Virus record (IMG/VR): IMGVR_UViG_3300009183_000391
Coordinates: 1 to 22,465 of that record
From: a virus
Reading direction: 5' to 3' (one strand)
Length of the DNA: 22,465 nt
Position numbers and translations under genes: made by a program
Part shown: piece by piece, positions 9,413 to 22,353 of the stretch
Layout of the letters: each line of letters begins with the position of its first letter
Position numbering within the stretch: the first letter of the stretch is position 1
The notes under the pieces: generated by a model
What the model was told of the DNA's origin: nothing
What the model saw: the letters and a program-made list of their open reading frames with translations, nothing else
Database searches by the model: none

Positions 9413-11332
<1,920 letters not shown>

Positions 11333-11333
11333 T

Positions 11334-11819
11334 ATGCCCGTTACATTAAACTCATCAGGCGGCGGATCAGTAACGCTTACAACGCCGTCTACTGCTTCGA
11401 CGTTTACGGCAACGCTTCCTGCTGTAACGGGAACTTTATTGACGTCTTCGTCTCCCGCAATTACCAATCCAACAATAACGAATTACGTTGAAACTTATTT
11501 TACGGTTACGGGTTTTACATCTACTGTCACGCTTAACTTGGCAAACGGCACTGTTCAAAGCTTGACGCTGGTTTCTGCAACCGCGCTAACCATTACACTT
11601 CCTACGGCATCTACGCCGTCTCAGTCTTTTATTTTGATGATCAGACAGCCTGCATCTGGAACTGCAACGACTGCAACTTTTGCCGCGTCCCCTCCTGTAA
11701 AATGGCCCGGAGGAACAGCCCCAACAATTACGGCGACACTTGGCAGAATGGATATCATCACATTTGTTTCCGACGGAACAAATTGGTATGCCTCATTTGT
11801 GCAGAACTTCACGCCGTAA
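11334..11819 (+). CDS. Short fibre-associated beta protein
   Basis: 161 aa, beginning one base after the previous stop. It opens PVTLNSSGGGSVTLTTPSTA and contains ATLPAVTGTLLTSSSP, a pattern common at the shaft or tip of phage fibres. It ends with MDIITFVSDGTNWYASFVQN, an element I recognise at the C-terminus of many phage fibre proteins, where it forms a knob-like end. There are nearly no charged residues and no helix. It is best read as a separate small fibre or a detachable tip of the collagen-like fibre, since it follows with no gap. Coupling by re-initiation is likely because no clear ribosome binding site precedes it. Confidence 0.72.
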   Translation: MPVTLNSSGGGSVTLTTPSTASTFTATLPAVTGTLLTSSSPAITNPTITNYVETYFTVTGFTSTVTLNLANGTVQSLTLVSATALTITLPTASTPSQSFILMIRQPASGTATTATFAASPPVKWPGGTAPTITATLGRMDIITFVSDGTNWYASFVQNFTP

Positions 11820-11833
11820 AGGGGATACGCGCA

Positions 11834-13456
11834 GTGTTTTCAGCCCTTAATTTCTTCCTTGCTGGCGGCAAGCAATATACAATTATTGAAAATTTTATCG
11901 CTACAGGTTCTGGCTCTTGGGTCGCGCCTACAGGCGTGACGCAGATTGATAGTTACCTTATCGTTGCTGGTGGTGGTGGCGGTGGTGGAGCTTCTGGCGC
12001 TGGCGGTGGTCGCGGTGGTGGCGGCGCAGGCGGATATATAACTGGCACAAATTTAGCGGTTACAGCTGGAACTTCATACACGGTAACAGTTGGTGGAGGA
12101 GGCGCAGGCGGCGCAGCAAGTGAACAAAACGGCGTTCAAGGAAGCCCTAGTTCATTCCCCGGCGCGACGACCGCTGTAGGCGGTGGTTTTGGTAACGGCT
12201 ATGTTGCCCCTTATACTGGCGGTTCTGGTGGTTCAGGTGGTGGCTCTAGCCAAGGCAATACGTCATCGGGTGGCCCTGCATCTCCGTCGGGGCAAGGTAA
12301 TAACGGCGGCGCGGGGAACTCCAATGTTGGCGGAGGCGGGGGCGGTGCGGGTGGTGTAGGAGCAACAGGCTCTGGAAATAATGGCGGCAATGGCGGCACG
12401 GCAACATCTAATTCTATTTCTGGAACCTCTACGTATTACGCAGGAGGCGGCGGTTCGGCAGGATATGCTGGCGGCACAAACGGATTAGGCGGCGGAACCG
12501 CGACTGTCGCCAACAAAGGCGGCGGCGCTGATGGTCGTCAAGGTTCTGGCACTGGAAATGCTGGCACAGCAAACACCGGCGGCGGCGGTGGTGGCGGGGC
12601 GCAAGGTTCTTCTGGAGGAACTGGCGGTTCTGGCATTGTCATTCTTTCCTACAAAATTAATTCAGGCACATCTGTAACATTTAAATCCACGGCCACAGTA
12701 ACAATCCCAACCGGCTGCACAACAATTGACTATCTTGTTGTTGCTGGCGGCGGTGGCGGTGGTGGGATTAACAGCGGCTCATATGCAGATGGCGGTGGTG
12801 GTGGTGCCGGAGGCTATTTAACTGGCACTGCATCAGTTACAGCCGGAACCTCATATACTGTTACTATTGGTGGTGGTGGCCCGGGTGGAAATAACAACGC
12901 AGCATCTGCTTTAATTGGCGGTAATTCGTCTATAGCTTTAACTGCTTCTCCTTTTACTGCTTTAGTTACATCTACCGGCGGCGGTGGTGGAGGATTTCGC
13001 GATAACACCAACAACAACGGTGGAAATGGCGGTTCTGGTGGTGGCGCTGCAATTAACGCGGCTGGTAATTTATCTGGAACTGTTGGGGCGGGAACTGCGC
13101 CACAAGGAAACAATGGCGGTTTAGCGGGTAACGCAGTTGGCCCTGCATTTGGCGGTGGTGGCGGTGGCGGTGCTTTTGCGATGGGTAGCGCTGGGTCAAG
13201 TACTTCTGGCGGCGGCGCTGGCGGCGCTGGATCTAATTCATTTAATGGAACTTATTACGCAGGTGGCGGCGGCGGTGCCGCTCGTAACGGCCCTGTTGGT
13301 TCTGGAGGTAATGGCGGCGGCGGTGCAGGCGGAGTTATGACCACAGGCACTGCGGGAACAGCTAATACTGGTGGCGGCGGTGGTGGTTCGACATCATCAG
13401 GAACAGGAACTGGCGGCGCTGGCGGTTCTGGTATCGTAATCATCAAGTTCAACTAA
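11834..13456 (+). CDS. Glycine-rich adhesin with duplicated domain
   Basis: 540 aa. I start at GTG 11834, with AAGGGG (11819-11824) 9 bases upstream; an upstream in-frame start would run through the preceding gene. After a short N-terminus (FSALNFFLAGG) come two copies of the same domain. Copy 1 (about 17-275) begins SWVAPTGVTQIDSYLIVAGG and ends GGSGIVILSY; copy 2 (about 276-540) begins TVTIPTGCTTIDYLVVAGGG and ends GGSGIVIIKF. Each holds a GGYxTGT...VTAGTSYTV(T)(V/I)GGGG element and many Gly runs. This widespread Gly-rich phage domain may form packed polyglycine helices, as in the S16-type Gp38 adhesin tip, which binds host receptors. A receptor-binding role is therefore likely but inferred. 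Confidence 0.8.
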   Translation: MFSALNFFLAGGKQYTIIENFIATGSGSWVAPTGVTQIDSYLIVAGGGGGGGASGAGGGRGGGGAGGYITGTNLAVTAGTSYTVTVGGGGAGGAASEQNGVQGSPSSFPGATTAVGGGFGNGYVAPYTGGSGGSGGGSSQGNTSSGGPASPSGQGNNGGAGNSNVGGGGGGAGGVGATGSGNNGGNGGTATSNSISGTSTYYAGGGGSAGYAGGTNGLGGGTATVANKGGGADGRQGSGTGNAGTANTGGGGGGGAQGSSGGTGGSGIVILSYKINSGTSVTFKSTATVTIPTGCTTIDYLVVAGGGGGGGINSGSYADGGGGGAGGYLTGTASVTAGTSYTVTIGGGGPGGNNNAASALIGGNSSIALTASPFTALVTSTGGGGGGFRDNTNNNGGNGGSGGGAAINAAGNLSGTVGAGTAPQGNNGGLAGNAVGPAFGGGGGGGAFAMGSAGSSTSGGGAGGAGSNSFNGTYYAGGGGGAARNGPVGSGGNGGGGAGGVMTTGTAGTANTGGGGGGSTSSGTGTGGAGGSGIVIIKFN

Positions 13457-13478: not shown

Positions 13479-13742
13479 GATAAGCAGACGAAAATATACA
13501 GGCTAATGGGTATTGATACGGCAATGCATTTATTGCGCCCCGGCGCTGCTTGGGAAATCAGCAACAATCAATTCACGCGCTGGGAAGACGAGCGCCCATG
13601 TCCAACAATTGAAGAAGTCTACGAGACGATCGACAAGATCAAAGCGTTTGAGGATAGCATCAAGACGATCTACACGTCCAAGCAGCTTGAAGAAATGGGC
13701 GTAAAGCAGCAGGAATTAGAGGAGGCTCTTGGTGATAATTGA
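13476..13742 (+). CDS. Small protein of the fibre cassette, function unknown
   Basis: 88 aa. The binding site AAGAAGGGG lies in the loop of a hairpin that ends at the ATG. The N-terminal half contains MHLLRPGAAWEISNNQFTRW, a pattern seen in short phage proteins next to tail fibres, followed by ERPCPTIEEVYETIDKIKAF. The C-terminal half is a charged helix or coiled coil (YTSKQLEEMGVKQQELEEAL). It has no membrane span or catalytic motif. Its end overlaps the oxygenase gene by 11 bases, so the two are co-expressed. A fibre-assembly helper is a reasonable guess from size and position, not a demonstrated function. Confidence 0.75.
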   Translation: MDKQTKIYRLMGIDTAMHLLRPGAAWEISNNQFTRWEDERPCPTIEEVYETIDKIKAFEDSIKTIYTSKQLEEMGVKQQELEEALGDN

Positions 13743-14337
13743 GAACCTTTATCCAATTCCGATTGGCTTTTTTAAGCATGAAGAAGGCATAACGGAAAAT
13801 CAAACGACGTTTATGGTTGAGCAAGAGCAGCGGCCTAATGACGGCAATACAAGCAGCGTCAATAGATATTTGATGAAAGAAAAGAAGCTCGCAAGTCTCA
13901 CTACATTTATTGAGAAATGCGCGCATGAATATCTGATGGCGACGATCTGCCCAAAAAATGATGTTAGGCTTCGAATTACGCAATCTTGGCTAAACTGGAC
14001 CAAGCCCGGGCAGTTTCATCATAAACATGCACATCCAAACAGTCTCATCTCTGGCTGCTATTATGTCAAAGCCAACAAGGAAACTGATAAGATATTTTTC
14101 TACAAAGATGGATATCAGCAGATTAAGTTCCCGCCTGTAGAATGGAATGCTTACAATTCGGAGAGTTGGTGGTATCCTGTCGGAACCGGCGATCTGGTGT
14201 TTTTCCCGTCTCATTTGACCCATATGGTTCAGCCAGTGGGCGGCGATGACACAAGGATCAGCATAGCTTTTAACACCTTCCCCGTCGGGCATGTCGGGGA
14301 TGAAGACGAATTAACCGCATTATATTTGGGGAAATAA
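13732..14337 (+). CDS. 2-oxoglutarate/Fe(II)-dependent oxygenase (phage TIGR02466-like)
   Basis: 201 aa. I choose GTG 13732 because AGGAGG (13720-13725) is 6 bases before it; the in-frame TTG at 13729 is too close. The family signature is present: SWLNWTKPGQFHHKHAHPNS (85-104), then LISGCYYVKA, then GDLVFFPSHLTHMVQPVGG (153-171) and RISIAFN (175-181). His99 or His101 and His164 are likely iron ligands and Arg175 likely binds 2-oxoglutarate. The classic HxD acidic ligand is not obvious, since the position two after His99 is His101, as in the family as I recall it. These enzymes hydroxylate protein or other substrates. The gene sits among tail-fibre genes, so hydroxylation of a virion protein is a fair guess; the substrate is unknown. 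Confidence 0.85.
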   Translation: MIIENLYPIPIGFFKHEEGITENQTTFMVEQEQRPNDGNTSSVNRYLMKEKKLASLTTFIEKCAHEYLMATICPKNDVRLRITQSWLNWTKPGQFHHKHAHPNSLISGCYYVKANKETDKIFFYKDGYQQIKFPPVEWNAYNSESWWYPVGTGDLVFFPSHLTHMVQPVGGDDTRISIAFNTFPVGHVGDEDELTALYLGK

Positions 14338-16612: not shown

Positions 16613-19303
16613 ATGGCGCTTCCCGTTGAAGTCAATCCGCTCTTTTTGGAAAACCAATACGCCATTCAGCGGTCGTTGAGACTTCGTCAAGGCAATAGCA
16701 ATAATGCGTATTTGAATAGGACGCCAGCTAGTAGTGGTAATAGAAAAACTTGGACTTGGAGCGCTTGGCTTAAAAGAGGAACTCTTGGCGCAAACCAAAT
16801 ATTGTTTGATTGCGATAATGGAACAACAGATGCAACTTTTGGCTCAATTGGGTTTCTTTCTGGGGATACTTTAGCATTCGGCGCATACAATCAAGCGTGG
16901 CGAATAACAACACAAGTATTTAGAGACCCAAGCGCGTTTTATCATTTTGTCGTAGCATTTGACACTACTCAAGCGACACCAATAAACAGAGTAAAAATTT
17001 ATGTGAATGGCGTTCAGATTTTTAATTTTGGCACATCTAATGACCCAACGCAAAATACTGACTATGCTATAAACCAAAACGCTGTTCATAACATAGCTAA
17101 AACATATGGTGCATATGGATACTTCGACGGCTACCTAGCCGAAGTAAATTTTATAGATACGCCTATTATGGTTGGCTCAACAAATAGCACAACCACAATT
17201 ACTTTAACATCTGGAACAACTTCAGGATTACAAGTCGGGTGGAATGTTGGCGGCACAAATATCCCAGCAGGAGCAACGATTAGCAGTATTACAGATAGCA
17301 CACACTTTGTTATCTCATCCGCTGCTACTGGAACAGGTTCGTCAATATCGTTTGGCGCTACGCCTCCGCTATCTGCCTTCGGCCAATACAACGAGTTTGG
17401 CGTCTGGTCCCCGCGCAAGTATGGCGGTTCCTATGGGACCAATGGGTTTTATTTGCCGTTTAATGATCCAACGTCTGCAACAACGCTTTGCTACGACAGG
17501 CAGCTTGGATACACAGATACATCAAAGAATAATTGGACGCCCAACAACATCAGCACAACCCCCGGCCCCACCTACGACGCAATGACGGACGTCCCGCCGC
17601 CAAGCACAATACAGAATGTCGCGGCGGGGAATTATGCGGTTATTAGTCCTTTAGACATTAGTGCCTCAAATTCACAACGCCCTACAGATGGCAACTTAAC
17701 TTATCCTGTCACAGGCGCATTTCAATACAGCGCAAGAGGCACAATATTTGTCACAAGCGGAAAATGGTATGCAGAATTTACTATGTCGTCCAGTGCAGCA
17801 ATCGTTGCAGTAGTAAATTCAAGCGCAATTCTTTCTGGATATAACGCAGTAAACGGAATTTTTACATCAACCACATCAATATATAATAATGGAACACAAG
17901 TGCAATCTGGATTAGCTGCATTTTCAGCTAATGACGTTATCGGCGTAGCTTTTGATGCGGATGCTAACACTGTTCAGTTTTATAGGAATGGTTCAACATA
18001 TGGAACCGCTGTAACTATATCTGCTTTTTCTGGCCCGTTTACTTTTCAAACAGGCGCAAACGGCGCTACCTGCACAATTAACGCCAACTTTGGCCAGCAA
18101 CCATTTCGCGGAATGTATGTCTCCGGCTCTGGCTCATCTTTTGTCGGAACAGGCGCTCCACCATCCGGCTTCCGCCCACTAAATACCAATAATCTCCCGT
18201 CGCCCACGATCCCGAATGGGGCGAGGGTGATGGCGGCGGTGACGTGGAATGGTGACAATGCGTCTCCGCGTTCATTAGTTCCATCGTCAACTAACAGTGG
18301 CAATAATCCGTTAGGCACGACATTCCAGCCAGATTTCGTATGGGTAAAAAATAGAACTAGCGGGCTTTACTGGAACGTATTGTTTGACAGCGTTCGCGGC
18401 GCTGGAAATCAGCTTTCGTCAAATCAAACAGATGCAGAGTTAGCAAGCGCATCAAACATAGCGGGTAAGGTATCCGCGTTTAACGCTGATGGCTTTTCGG
18501 TTCTTTCCGGCTCATCCGGTATTTTAAGTGTCAATGGAACAAGCAATAGTTATGTTGGCTGGCAATGGAAAGCTGGCGGCTCCACGCCAACGACAGGCAC
18601 AGGCACTGGCGGTATAACAAATGTGCAATACAGCGCAAATGTTTCGGCTGGTTTCTCTATTGTAACTTATACTGGATCTGGGGCTAATGGCACTGTAACA
18701 CACGGTCTTGGCGCTACGCCAGCATTCATTATGATTAAGGACAGGGGTAGCTCCTCAAACGGCGGCGTTGTATATCACACTAGCCTTGGCGCTACGCAAT
18801 ATTTGCAATTGTTTATTACAACTACTGGCAGCAATGGTTATGCATCAGACAATACTATGTTTAATGGCGGATCTCCAACTTTCAATTCGTCAGTATTTTC
18901 TGTTGGCACAAATGTAAGAACAAATACAACTGATAATTATATAGCCTACTGCTGGGCCCCTGTCAGCGGGTATTCGGCGATGGGGAGTTATACGGCAAAT
19001 GCAAGCACGGACGGACCTATGGTCTTTCTTAATTTTAGACCTAGATTTATTTTACTTAAAAATACAACTCGTGTTCTGGATTGGATTATTTATGACAGTT
19101 CTAGAGATTTATATAATACAGAAACGCAACAGCTATACCCAAATTTGAGCAGCTCCGAAGCTAGTGGGGCAAACATAGACTTTTTGTCTAACGGTTTTAA
19201 AATTCGTGCAGGCAGCGGTTCCGGCATCAATAATACATCTGGTGATGTCTACATCTATGCCGCCTTCGCGGAAAATCCATTTCGCATGGCGCTCGCCCGT
19301 TAG
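16613..19303 (+). CDS. Large modular fibre: split LamG, SPRY-like and triple C-terminal repeat
   Basis: 896 aa, the largest complete gene here. Residues of about 14-183 plus 254-300 form one concanavalin/LamG-type domain (RKTWTWSAWLKRG; DGYLAEVNFIDTP; FGVWSPRKYGGSYGTNGFYL), interrupted at about 185-251 by a separate beta module. Residues of about 380-495 look SPRY-like (GKWYAEFTM; GVAFDADANTVQFYRNGSTY; INANFGQQPF). The C-terminal part holds three copies of a repeat that I recall as DUF7483-type: about 568-660 (PDFVWVKNRTSGLYWNVLFD), 677-790 (GLGATPAFIMIKDRGSSSNG) and 792-896 (RPRFILLKNTTRVLDWIIYD, ending YAAFAENPF). All three fold types bind sugars or proteins, so this is a probable receptor-binding virion protein. 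A catalytic centre is not seen. Domain names are from memory. Confidence 0.8.
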   Translation: MALPVEVNPLFLENQYAIQRSLRLRQGNSNNAYLNRTPASSGNRKTWTWSAWLKRGTLGANQILFDCDNGTTDATFGSIGFLSGDTLAFGAYNQAWRITTQVFRDPSAFYHFVVAFDTTQATPINRVKIYVNGVQIFNFGTSNDPTQNTDYAINQNAVHNIAKTYGAYGYFDGYLAEVNFIDTPIMVGSTNSTTTITLTSGTTSGLQVGWNVGGTNIPAGATISSITDSTHFVISSAATGTGSSISFGATPPLSAFGQYNEFGVWSPRKYGGSYGTNGFYLPFNDPTSATTLCYDRQLGYTDTSKNNWTPNNISTTPGPTYDAMTDVPPPSTIQNVAAGNYAVISPLDISASNSQRPTDGNLTYPVTGAFQYSARGTIFVTSGKWYAEFTMSSSAAIVAVVNSSAILSGYNAVNGIFTSTTSIYNNGTQVQSGLAAFSANDVIGVAFDADANTVQFYRNGSTYGTAVTISAFSGPFTFQTGANGATCTINANFGQQPFRGMYVSGSGSSFVGTGAPPSGFRPLNTNNLPSPTIPNGARVMAAVTWNGDNASPRSLVPSSTNSGNNPLGTTFQPDFVWVKNRTSGLYWNVLFDSVRGAGNQLSSNQTDAELASASNIAGKVSAFNADGFSVLSGSSGILSVNGTSNSYVGWQWKAGGSTPTTGTGTGGITNVQYSANVSAGFSIVTYTGSGANGTVTHGLGATPAFIMIKDRGSSSNGGVVYHTSLGATQYLQLFITTTGSNGYASDNTMFNGGSPTFNSSVFSVGTNVRTNTTDNYIAYCWAPVSGYSAMGSYTANASTDGPMVFLNFRPRFILLKNTTRVLDWIIYDSSRDLYNTETQQLYPNLSSSEASGANIDFLSNGFKIRAGSGSGINNTSGDVYIYAAFAENPFRMALAR
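17158..17365 (+). repeat. In-frame inserted module bounded by 7-bp direct repeats
   Basis: TACGCCT occurs at 17158-17164 and at 17359-17365; the offset of 201 bp is exactly 67 codons. Removing one copy and the intervening DNA would join FIDTP to PLSAFG, restoring the usual FID-x(n)-SxFG run of LamG-type phage proteins. The inserted peptide (GSTNSTTTITLTSGTTSGLQ and NIPAGATISSI) resembles a free-standing beta module found in other phage proteins. Confidence 0.6.
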
Positions 19304-19861: not shown

Positions 19862-19886
19862 ACATTCTCAGAAGGGGGAGAATGTG
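19862..19886 (+). promoter_or_regulatory. Hairpin over the glycosyltransferase start, binding site in loop
   Basis: ACATTCTC (19862-19869) pairs perfectly with GAGAATGT (19878-19885), and the loop AGAAGGGG carries the Shine-Dalgarno. The G and U of the GTG start codon (19884-19886) are within the stem, so the fold could limit initiation until melted. Confidence 0.5.
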
Positions 19887-21620
19887 CTTCCAATCGTCAC
19901 TTGCACAGTGGACGGAAAATGTCTGCCCGTTCTACAGGCAAGCATCAAAGCATACGCGCCTGATGTCCCACATCTAATCTACAGTCCAAAGCAAGAGACA
20001 TCCGCCAAGTCATATGACGTCGCGCTAAAAATAGCTTTTCAAGAATATGATGAAGTAATCGTCTGCGCTGATGATCTGGTTTTAACGCCTGATAGCTATC
20101 GCCTGTTATGCGAAGACATCAACAATCTAAAAGCAATACACGGCGATAAGCTTGGCATTGTCGCGGCGCATACGGACTTCACGCGCTACACGCAAAACAT
20201 ACGCTATCAGCAAGCGCCAACTGATAAATTGGAATATGGCAAATGGTCTTGGGAGCATGAGTGCCGCCCCGTCAAAAGACTAAGCCCAATCTTCCATTAT
20301 CTCTCAAAGAAAATGTATGAGGATACATTTTTGCCGCCAATTGAGTGGTATAGCGACGACGTCATGTGCGAGGATTTAAATGCGAAAGGATACACGCATT
20401 ATATTTCTCGCGCTTATGTGCATCATGCTGGCTCGCAGACATTAGGACAAAACACGCAAAAGTTGCATGACGACGCCATGCCGTGGCTGATAAAGAACCG
20501 CCCACAATATTTGGATCTATTTTTTGGAGAAGGGGCCAGAAAAAAGATGGAAAAAAAATTAAAGATCGCAGTCTATACGATCACGAAAAACGAAGAGCAA
20601 TTTATTGAGCGTTGGGCGCAATCGGCCAAAGACGCAGACTTGCTTCTCATTGCCGATACTGGCTCAACAGACGACACGGTCAAAATTGCAAAAGAAAATG
20701 GAGTAACCGTTCATGATATTTGCGTAACGCCTTGGCGCTTTGATCACGCTAGAAACTCCTCCCTCATGCTTATCCCAAAAGATTATGACGTCTGCATTTG
20801 TCTTGACGCAGATGAGGTTATGGAGCCCGGCTGGCGTGAAGAAATAGAGCGCGTCTGGGTTCCGGGAGAAACGACGCACTTACGCTATAAGTTCGATTGG
20901 AGCTTGGGTATCGTTTTCTATTCAGAAAAGATCCACGCGCGCCACGGCTATTATTGGTGGCACAGCTGCCACGAGCACATACGCGCCGACTTGCGGATCA
21001 CGGAGGTGTGGGCCCACACAGACTTTTTGCTCATAACCCACCATCCTGACCCGACAAAAAGCCGGGGGCATTACATGGAGACGCTGGAGCTATCGGTCAA
21101 AGAAGACCCGCATTGCCCCAGAAACGCCTTCTACTACGCGCGTGAGCTTTATTTCCATAACCGCTACGAAGAGGCAATAACGGCGCTTGATCGCTACCTT
21201 AAAATGCCGGAAGCGGTTTGGGTCAACGATCGATGCTACGCCATGCGCGTTTTGGGTCAATGCTATGCGGCGCTTGGCGATCAAATTGCCGCAGAGGCTT
21301 GGTATCACAAGGCGGCAGCTGAAGCGCCGCATACGCGCGAGCCTTGGGTGGCATTGGCAAAATTATATTATGAGCAACATAAATGGGCAGAAAGTTATGG
21401 TGCCGCAACGCGCGCCCTATCTATTAAAAATAAGGAATTAGTTTATACTACCGAAGCGGCTTCTTGGGGGTCTCTCCCGCACGATCATGCCGCGATTGCG
21501 GCGTATCGTCTTGGGATGACGGAAGTAGCGATTGAACAGGGCAAGCTCGCCTGTGAGCTTGATCCAGACGATAAGCGACTACAGGAAAACCTCCTGTGGT
21601 ATACGGGCGAGAAAACATGA
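19884..21620 (+). CDS. Double glycosyltransferase with C-terminal TPR repeats
   Basis: 578 aa from GTG 19884. Domain 1 (about 1-215) looks like a GT-A-type domain: PIVTCTVDG at the start, VIVCADDLVLTPD with the acidic pair Asp63-Asp64, EWYSDDVMCEDL (154-165) and a later AYVHHAGS. Domain 2 (about 222-405) is a clear family-2-like glycosyltransferase: YTITKNEEQFIERW, ADTGSTDDTVKIA (257-269), WRFDHARN (284-291) and the metal-binding DAD motif at 308-310 (CLDADEVMEPGW). Residues of about 410-575 form TPR-type helical repeats (YYARELYFHNRYEEAITALD). Cytoplasmic sugar transfer from nucleotide sugars to a protein or surface glycan is expected. Position after the fibres suggests virion glycosylation; a host-surface target is equally possible. 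A binding-site-like sequence, ATG and slippery A-runs lie at the junction of the two domains. Confidence 0.83.
   Translation: MLPIVTCTVDGKCLPVLQASIKAYAPDVPHLIYSPKQETSAKSYDVALKIAFQEYDEVIVCADDLVLTPDSYRLLCEDINNLKAIHGDKLGIVAAHTDFTRYTQNIRYQQAPTDKLEYGKWSWEHECRPVKRLSPIFHYLSKKMYEDTFLPPIEWYSDDVMCEDLNAKGYTHYISRAYVHHAGSQTLGQNTQKLHDDAMPWLIKNRPQYLDLFFGEGARKKMEKKLKIAVYTITKNEEQFIERWAQSAKDADLLLIADTGSTDDTVKIAKENGVTVHDICVTPWRFDHARNSSLMLIPKDYDVCICLDADEVMEPGWREEIERVWVPGETTHLRYKFDWSLGIVFYSEKIHARHGYYWWHSCHEHIRADLRITEVWAHTDFLLITHHPDPTKSRGHYMETLELSVKEDPHCPRNAFYYARELYFHNRYEEAITALDRYLKMPEAVWVNDRCYAMRVLGQCYAALGDQIAAEAWYHKAAAEAPHTREPWVALAKLYYEQHKWAESYGAATRALSIKNKELVYTTEAASWGSLPHDHAAIAAYRLGMTEVAIEQGKLACELDPDDKRLQENLLWYTGEKT
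20526..20558 (+). other. Slippery heptamers with upstream SD-like sequence
   Basis: GGAGAAGGGG (20526-20535) precedes A AAA AAG (20540-20546), which is in the zero-frame phase needed for -1 frameshifting. The ATG at 20547 and an A8 run (20551-20558), itself containing an in-phase A AAA AAA, follow. A -1 shift would give about 20 new codons and then TGA, releasing domain 1 alone. No strong downstream stem is seen. The same elements would also serve internal initiation at ATG 20547. Confidence 0.4.
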
Positions 21621-21853
21621 TGGACTTCCAAACCATACTCAATTTCGGCCTTGGCGTGGCTGTAGCGGTTTTTGGCTGGTTTGCAAGAGAACTTTGGGTA
21701 GCTGTTAAGGATTTAAAGGAAGACATCCACAAGATCGAAGTTGAGCTCCCAAGTCATTATCTCCGCAAGGATGAGTTTGCCGAAGCCATGAAAGAAGTCA
21801 AAGAAATGCTCGGCAAGATATTCGACAAGTTAGACGATAAGGCCGATAAATGA
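21617..21853 (+). CDS. Lysis-cassette membrane protein with coiled coil
   Basis: 78 aa. ATG 21617 overlaps the previous stop (ATGA); a second ATG follows directly at 21620. Residues of about 6-26 (TILNFGLGVAVAVFGWFARE) form one membrane helix near the N-terminus. The rest is a charged helix likely to form a coiled coil (AVKDLKEDIHKIEVELPSHY, then KEVKEMLGKIFDKLDD). The phrase RKDEFAEAMKEVKEMLGKIF is a familiar ending for small proteins placed directly before phage endolysins. It could be an inner-membrane spanin-like, XhlA-like or holin-related component. The stop overlaps the endolysin start. Which of these functions applies cannot be decided from sequence alone. Confidence 0.77.
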   Translation: MMDFQTILNFGLGVAVAVFGWFARELWVAVKDLKEDIHKIEVELPSHYLRKDEFAEAMKEVKEMLGKIFDKLDDKADK

Positions 21854-22353
21854 AGGAAAATTATCCGCAAGCTCTTAGGCAAGTCTTAAAATATGAAGGC
21901 GGCTACGTTGATCATCCAAAAGATCCGGGCGGCCCGACGAATAAGGGCGTTACGCAAGCAGTCTATGATGCTTGGCAAAAGAAAAACGGACTCCCAACCC
22001 AAAGCGTTCGCAATATCAGCGATGCTGCTGTGGCGGCAATTTATAAACAGCAATACTGGGATGCTATTTCTGGAGATGATCTGCCCTCTGGCGTTGATTT
22101 TGCTGTGTTCGATTATGCAGTAAACAGCGGCGTTTCTCGCGCAGCCAAAACTCTTCAAGGTATTGTAGGCGTTACGCAGGATGGGCAAATCGGCCCTGCA
22201 ACTATACAGGCCACCAAGACCTATATCGCCATGACCGTTACCAATAAGCGCCTAGCGTTTATGCAAAGCCTGTCCATTTGGTCTACTTTTGGCAGAGGCT
22301 GGTCTGCGCGAATCGCTGATGTAAAGAATCAAATTTTGGCTTTAACGAAATAG
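21850..22353 (+). CDS. GH108 endolysin (N-acetylmuramidase)
   Basis: 167 aa, ATGA-coupled to the membrane protein. The family landmark is complete: VLKYEGGYVDHPKDPGGPTN (12-31) with the catalytic Glu16 of the EGGY motif, followed by KGVTQAVYDAW, YKQQYWDAISGDDLPSGVDF and FDYAVNSGVSRAA. The C-terminal half (TLQGIVGVTQDGQIGPATIQ) is the peptidoglycan-binding type 3 region usual in this family, so the protein is full length. It cleaves the glycan backbone of the host cell wall at the end of infection. There is no signal peptide or membrane anchor, so release needs a holin, probably one of the small membrane proteins beside it. Confidence 0.92.
   Translation: MKENYPQALRQVLKYEGGYVDHPKDPGGPTNKGVTQAVYDAWQKKNGLPTQSVRNISDAAVAAIYKQQYWDAISGDDLPSGVDFAVFDYAVNSGVSRAAKTLQGIVGVTQDGQIGPATIQATKTYIAMTVTNKRLAFMQSLSIWSTFGRGWSARIADVKNQILALTK

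Follow-up and report, generated by a model that had tools for sequence, protein, structure and literature searches.

IMG/VR record IMGVR_UViG_3300009183_000391 is analysed here over its whole length of 22,465 bases, called the window below. It seems to be part of the genome of a tailed phage, and it has genes for capsid, tail-fibre-like and lysis proteins. Among 50,697 deposited phages, the one near match covers 2% of the window length and lies over the lysozyme. The subject of this report is a gene at 19884-21620 for a protein of 578 residues, in which two glycosyltransferase (GT) domains, D1 and D2, are followed by an array of tetratricopeptide repeats (TPRs). The original prediction that two different GT domains and a TPR region share one phage protein is borne out: the open reading frame (ORF) is open from its GTG start, Pfam finds Glycos_transf_2 and TPR families, and D1 models as a GT-A domain. 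D1 spans residues 1-221, the GT2 GT-A domain (D2) about 226-396 and the TPR array 397-578, the last two with boundaries from hidden Markov models (HMMs). The features of the gene are:

19884..21620, plus strand: fused D1-D2-TPR glycosyltransferase gene, 578 residues, GTG start
19872..19880, plus strand: purine-rich ribosome-binding site of the fused gene, AAGGGGGAG, read from the sequence
19884..20546, plus strand: D1, residues 1-221, predicted GT-A fold, no Pfam match
20070..20075, plus strand: D1 acidic pair D63-D64, candidate DxD-type metal/nucleotide-sugar site, invariant in 33/33
20352..20360, plus strand: D1 S157-D158-D159 (WYSDD), candidate catalytic-base region, S157 and D158 invariant in 33/33
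20421..20426, plus strand: D1 H180-H181, candidate C-terminal metal-binding His, invariant in 33/33
20526..20533, plus strand: GGAGAAGG, resembling a ribosome-binding site, in codons for the end of D1 (GEG), not specially conserved
20547..20549, plus strand: internal in-frame ATG (Met222), former D2 start codon, as the linker aligns with the N-terminus of stand-alone D2
20559..21071, plus strand: D2, residues 226-396, GT2 GT-A domain (PF00535; phrog_13126)
20805..20813, plus strand: D2 DAD motif, D308-D310, read from the sequence
21072..21617, plus strand: TPR array, residues 397-578 (Pfam TPR families; helical pairs in the model)

D1 is, by a high-confidence prediction (AlphaFold pLDDT 91.8, pTM 0.88), a GT-A fold, as the VIA-align and Foldseek matches of the model also indicate, and the ranking of those matches does not fix its family. 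The best Foldseek match in the PDB is majastridin (1.2e-8), and among predicted viral structures the top matches are mostly phage proteins named glycosyltransferases, at about 1e-8. With VIA-align, the GT13 enzymes come first (Z 15-16), namely GnT-I (1foa; Z 16.1, 3.0 Å over 178 residues) and POMGnT1 (5ggf; Z 15.2, 2.8 Å over 164 residues), at 16-21% identity to D1. However, STIV A197 and majastridin (both 15.1), GalNAc-T2 (15.0) and GalNAc-transferases (about 15) lie within some 1-2 Z of them, and Pfam searches with 33 D1 sequences return no GT13 family at E up to 1. In the alignment of these 33 sequences, which are 40-91% identical to the window's D1, the residues D63, D64, S157, D158, H180 and H181 are invariant and D159 nearly so. 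The acidic pair D63-D64 and the element WYSDDV at 155-160 had both been picked out by the original prediction. The predicted Rossmann-like GT-A fold, with its invariant DD as a candidate metal site, would make D1 a GT-A member, and we take its invariant residues to fit the GT-A layout of a DxD-like site, an acidic base region and a C-terminal His.

The window's D1 has no match in Pfam or NCBIfam, nothing usable in PHROGs and, at an E threshold of 1, no match among the 50,697 deposited phage records. Over the 33 members, Pfam returns 13 families, each for a single member and including Glycos_transf_2 at 0.091, and PHROGs a single family, the glycosyltransferase phrog_3692, in three of the 33 (best 0.0023). 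The PDB matches of D1 from two profile searches (an AI-designed TIM barrel, gp120/gp160, Hsp70 and similar) are weak or compositional and were set aside as chance. Relatives are nonetheless at least 585 in IMG/VR, against four in 84,980 species genomes, all four in metagenome-assembled or uncultured bins, and D1 would define a large GT-A family whose member in the window lacks a Pfam match. Two of its relatives are worth describing. In L176 (3233-5603), a contig binned as an Opitutae genome, a 46% relative of D1 lies after a Gly-X-Thr collagen-like ORF with Thr in 26 of 29 triplets. In L113 (4001-5248, 415 residues), D1 is joined at its C-terminal side to a different domain, a second and independent D1 fusion, the partner of which resembles, by eye, an ORF adjoining D2 in L049.

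The second domain is better placed among known families. It carries the motif set assigned to it at the outset, TITKNEE at 232-238, DTGSTDD at 258-264 and DAD at 308-310. Pfam on the whole protein gives Glycos_transf_2 (PF00535) at 230-321 (2.2e-8) and several TPR families at about 390-575, and D2 with its TPRs matches phrog_13126, annotated as a beta-1,4-glycosyltransferase, at full length (1.3e-104, residues 6-355 of the 357). Searched against the PDB, the D2 profile finds GmaR (7.5e-7), the ThuS-type 7msk (1.4e-5) and SunS (1.9e-4), besides TPR proteins. The full-length model (pLDDT 90.4, pTM 0.61) has SunS/ThuS first in Foldseek (1.9e-15) and ThuS first in VIA-align (Z 18.7, 5.7 Å, 274 residues). 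The solved structures nearest to D2 are thus peptide or protein glycosyltransferases (SunS, ThuS, GmaR), and the domain shows what marks the GT2 GT-A and TPR protein glycosyltransferases: a DxD-bearing GT2-type domain with TPRs C-terminal to it. There is no detectable sequence relationship between D1 and D2, and the idea that D1 is a tandem duplicate of D2 was rejected at the sequence level (profile comparison probability 0.2%).

The two domains are, on comparison of related loci, well supported as the products of two neighbouring phage genes that fused, with a junction derived from the old gene boundary, as the original prediction had suspected. Direct evidence lies in the linker. Aligned with the N-termini of stand-alone D2 proteins, MEILELTATEILPEKKPLK in L041 and METIELTATEIIPEKKKLK in L109, the fused linkers METLELTAEEITPEKKRLK (L040) and MQTIDLTAIEVAPEPKKLK (L012) are identical at 10-15 of 19 positions, a level that, for one pair, was reached by none of 20,000 shuffles. 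The matched stretch includes the start Met of the stand-alone protein, and it is this agreement of leader and start Met that indicates an ORF born by gene fusion, with Met222 as the old D2 start codon and the linker as the old D2 leader, which is shortened in the window's group. A search with the whole protein gave 22 loci, four of which do not reach across the junction; the other 18 comprise 17 fused loci and the split L021. With the record L034/L040 as an additional fused case, the recurrence speaks against a chance event.

Split versions, whose existence the original prediction had left to be looked for, were found by wider searches in 13 IMG/VR records, in which each of the two domains has its own ORF within the same locus (from the HMM table: L021; L041, L042, L043; L046; L047; L070; L106; L109-L112; L121). 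The two genes overlap by 4 nt (ATGA) in L070 and are separated by 12 nt in L121. L041-43 have a methyltransferase (PF13578) between the two, and in L109 the order is a methyltransferase-like ORF, D1, another GT-like ORF (both identified by eye) and D2. A gene fusion is seen here together with its split relatives, and its linker still preserves a recognisable start codon and leader of the former D2 gene.

The original prediction had also seen in the linker a surviving ribosome-binding site together with an in-frame ATG. Only the ATG stands. It is retained in 10 of the 10 fused sequences compared, and its retention is meaningful as that of the old D2 start codon rather than of a start linked to a ribosome-binding site. 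The GGAG-containing GGAGAAGG is coding sequence for D1 with no sign of retention as a ribosome-binding site. It is separated from the ATG by 13 nt, a long spacing for a ribosome-binding site, and GGAG is broken in L040. That the site is kept for internal initiation was considered and rejected: the codons are those for FGEG, they show three extra codon variants in 10 sequences, and they are not among the most conserved of 61 runs. With such a spacing, the break in L040 and codons conserved no more than their neighbours, the element is at most a relic.

It is worth pointing out that the fusion appears to have been undone in one relative, L021. Its D1, which shares 94% identity with that of the window, precedes an HNH-type ORF (PF13392), after which D2 stands as a separate gene. 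Over roughly its first 160 residues, this D2 shares about 90% identity with L047, a split locus, and 57-72% with L004; past a short stretch common to all, it is 94-100% identical to L004 and 65-78% to L047. From this mosaic, the endonuclease and the GT domain next to it seem to have entered L021 together, breaking the fusion. HNH-type ORFs repeatedly stand immediately upstream of, and overlap, stand-alone D2 genes (L021 445-945, L046 1628-2128, L055 1267-1767, L072 80-574, L051 3777-4007), and in L047 such an ORF is reduced to a C-terminal remnant.

D2 has taken other partners as well. Of 58 distinct D2 sequences, 18 are joined to an S-adenosylmethionine (SAM) methyltransferase, one of them, in L064, across an intervening GT32-type domain; in L087 the partner is a GT32-type domain alone. 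The L064 ORF (2344-4563) is a triple fusion of 739 residues, SAM methyltransferase, GT32-type and GT2-TPR, and a Gly-X-Thr collagen-like gene lies about 600 bp before it. ORFs with the order methyltransferase-D2-TPR, 782-787 residues long and with an extra C-terminal stretch, occur at L058 1961-4312 and as long ORFs in L069, L074 and L094; in L058 the extra stretch is a GT32-type domain (PF04488). In L049 (1491-4216), a D2 of the fused-clade group lacks D1 and adjoins two other GT-like ORFs (by eye), as if the partner had been swapped. In a D2 tree of a quick type, without bootstrap, fused rows interleave with L041 and L049, whereas the aligned fused D1s form one close group, 83-91% identical to the window, with split D1s at 46-52%. 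These disagreeing histories indicate that D1 and D2 have been re-sorted. The four changes counted for the fused state on the D2 tree are too many, since L019 and L020 are labelled as standing alone only through cut contigs.

What such an enzyme might act on is suggested by its genomic company. The neighbouring genes that matter here are:

9413..11332, plus strand: collagen-like protein, candidate acceptor (PF01391 over the cut-off)
13729..14337, plus strand: 2-oxoglutarate (2OG)-Fe(II) oxygenase (PF13759)
16613..19303, plus strand: virion structural/tail-fibre-like protein, upstream of the fused gene (PHROGs)
21850..22353, plus strand: endolysin, downstream of the glycosyltransferase (phrog_315)

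In the collagen-like protein, 65 of the 77 Gly-X-Y triplets have Thr at Y; the average for bacterial collagens is given as 31.6% in the available part of PMC8968730. Collagen repeats (PF01391) were found in 33 of 51 records with D2 or of the fused clade (10 of 15 in the fused clade) versus three of 43 D1-only records. The 51 were picked by hand, mainly by length, and comprise 49 of about 88 records with D2 and a further two of the fused clade that are cut off ahead of D2; the 43 come from 65 D1-only loci. A set chosen independently of D2, by the major capsid protein, gave the same picture: repeats in six of six records with D2 versus four of 20 without (Fisher p 0.0009, with kinship ignored, so that Fisher values overstate the independence of records related to each other). 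These 26 records come from 33 loci of at least 10 kb. Seven short ones were left out, among them L265, a fragment without D2 that has a short collagen-like ORF by pattern, and L267 was counted as negative since its collagen-like ORF, recognised by pattern, has no PF01391 match (G096). Five D2-less records as long as 52-91 kb (G099, G102, G110, G112, G115) have no collagen repeat. An endolysin-centred control had a collagen ORF within the flanks in none of 80 loci, including 17 with D2 or its TPR part; this set is uninformative because the collagen gene lies farther off, and the capsid-centred set was used in its place.

Close linkage is seen in a minority. The D2 and collagen genes lie within 120 bp of each other for five of the 58 distinct D2 sequences (L078, L082, L100, L058, L086), which represent four lineages of the D2 tree. 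The closest deposited phage relative of D2, in Actinomycetia phage DSL-LC01, has two collagen genes a few genes upstream, and the next, in a gut contig, follows a collagen-like ORF whose end lies about 70 nt ahead of the match; in both the collagen genes are of the Gly-X-Thr type. In DSL-LC01 (L180 4448-7092), a gene annotated as tryptophan halogenase overlaps the D2 relative, downstream of the two collagen genes. The PF13759 oxygenase is present in 12 of 15 fused-clade records (11 over the cut-off), nine of 36 other D2 records and two of 43 D1-only records.

Several known systems come close to the architecture of the fused protein. SunS and ThuS, peptide S-glycosyltransferases, offer the closest solved fold for D2 but have no D1, and D2 falls far below the SunS equivalog cut-off; SunS acts on a bacteriocin peptide. 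K4 chondroitin polymerase, which appears in the Foldseek list of the full model, also has two GT domains in one chain. Its tandem GT-A domains make a polysaccharide, however, and the match names no TPR array. GmaR of Listeria, the best PDB sequence match of D2's GT domain, is described in the available text of PMC9638930 as a flagellin GlcNAc transferase with an N-terminal GT2 domain followed by TPRs; it thus shares a filament-protein acceptor, but has an extra antirepressor domain and no second GT. FlmG of Caulobacter, as far as the available text of PMC7591256 describes it, is likewise a modular cytoplasmic O-glycosyltransferase with a filament-protein acceptor, in which the flagellin-binding domain is N-terminal, an order reversed relative to D2-TPR. 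The strongest precedent for the collagen-fibre reading is SgtA of Clostridioides difficile. According to the accessible part of PMC7157674, SgtA has 358 residues, a GT-A domain and four C-terminal TPRs, its gene lies just upstream of bclA3, and it adds beta-O-GlcNAc to Thr of the Gly-Pro-Thr region of BclA3, with collagen-repeat peptides used in vitro. It is likened to D2 by architecture and length (358 versus 357 residues) and by its place beside a Gly-Pro-Thr collagen-like gene; the differences, on the same partial account, are that it is a bacterial spore-coat enzyme with no D1. GT-A and TPR protein glycosyltransferases are already known, and what is new here is two GTs in one chain together with a D1 family to which no Pfam model could be assigned. 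In the phages, moreover, a GT-TPR family goes along with collagen-like fibre genes and has a bacterial precedent of matching architecture.

We propose, with a probability of roughly 0.42, that the fused protein is a two-step protein glycosyltransferase: D2 would start the glycan on Thr of the collagen-like fibre, and D1 would lengthen it. Well supported in this reading are the structure, the fusion and its history. The original prediction named no acceptor; the genomic context points to a collagen-like virion protein. The TPR array of D2 would hold on to a virion protein of the phage, with the Thr-rich Gly-X-Thr repeats of the 9413-11332 fibre as the likeliest target; D2 would put the first sugar on Thr, as SgtA does on BclA3, and D1 would add the next sugar to the residue glycosylated by D2, yielding the disaccharide suggested by the original prediction. 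The shapes nearest to D1 include GnT-I and POMGnT1, enzymes that extend protein-linked glycans. The fusion would hold the second enzyme beside the fresh product, and the fibre would end up sugar-coated, stiffer or less recognisable.

A number of observations weigh against this proposal. On the side of the enzyme, the arrangement of the domains in the full model is uncertain at a pTM of 0.61, D2 is no SunS equivalog (26 bits against the TIGR04195 cut-off of 350), and a fold match does not fix a reaction. D1 relatives are mostly without D2 (65 of 80 loci in the HMM table), so D2's product is not needed by D1 everywhere. On the side of the acceptor, the window's collagen gene is 8.5 kb from the glycosyltransferase gene rather than adjacent. 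Collagen repeats are missing from 18 of the 51 D2 and fused-clade records, from several methyltransferase-D2 records longer than 23 kb, and from within 6 kb of the D2 relative in PaBG, HRDY3 and Lu11, three of the five named or deposited phages with D2 relatives that were examined; collagen therefore cannot always be D2's acceptor. Thr at Y is, furthermore, described as common among bacterial collagens generally in the part of PMC8968730 at hand.

Much of this evidence bears on the nearest rival, in which the same two-step enzyme acts on another virion protein, such as the tail-fibre-like product of 16613-19303 or the capsid, and the collagen gene is merely a frequent neighbour. The fused gene does lie directly between the tail-fibre-like and lysis genes, the collagen gene is distant, and the collagen-less D2 relatives of PaBG, HRDY3 and Lu11 are found near DNA ligase genes and, in PaBG and HRDY3, near head-protease genes as well. 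The co-occurrence of D2 with collagen in records chosen by an independent gene, and the adjacency of the two genes in four lineages, make a different virion acceptor unlikely in our view, if still a serious contender.

The substrates usually ascribed to phage glycosyltransferases are DNA or the host surface; this locus offers a concrete and testable alternative. Modification of a host envelope glycan (O-antigen or lipooligosaccharide), blocking superinfection, would follow the usual assignment as presented in the available portions of PMC7029224 and PMC10202952, and the PaBG relative is annotated as a lipooligosaccharide glucosyltransferase. We consider this improbable here, since the TPR array and the nearest solved relatives speak for peptide or protein enzymes, the record is a block of virion and lysis genes, and D2 tracks a virion gene. 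It is more doubtful still that D1 and D2 serve different acceptors and were joined as a neutral by-product of stop-codon loss between crowded genes. The other N-terminal partners of D2 (SAM methyltransferase, GT32-type domains) and the disagreeing histories of the two domains would suit such a loose fusion, but the fused form persists while D1 diverges by at least 17%, and the named motifs stay intact. Glycosylation of modified bases of the phage genome, a role known for some phage glycosyltransferases (PMC12619734, as far as its available text goes), is very unlikely, as the solved relatives nearest to D2 act on peptides or proteins and no base-hypermodification gene was noticed among the window proteins examined, of which only eight were scanned against PHROGs in an incomplete record.

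The collagen-fibre proposal has an extended form, which we rate as possible but on the unlikely side. The phage would have its own collagen-modification pathway, in which the 2OG-Fe(II) oxygenase hydroxylates and the fused GT pair assembles an O-glycan, a disaccharide or longer, along the Thr-rich triple helix of a tail fibre; sister phages would use, in place of the fused pair, an operon that combines GTs, methyltransferases and sugar enzymes. A prolyl hydroxylase role for the oxygenase is speculation, its sole encouragement being the B. anthracis enzyme mentioned in the available part of PMC8968730. If the pathway is real, its steps would parallel animal collagen processing and the spore collagens of Clostridium and Bacillus, and the cassette would have been re-sorted via gene fusion, homing endonucleases and module exchange. 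In a literature search that mostly excluded subscription journals, we found no paper on the glycosylation of a phage collagen-like protein.

Two further ORFs of the window may be mentioned. A protein of 454 residues at 697-2061 has spaced Lys/Gly-rich repeats of the KKGGKIKKAGG type and no PHROG match. After the collagen-like gene comes another ORF, of 584 residues at 11702-13456, which is also very rich in Gly.

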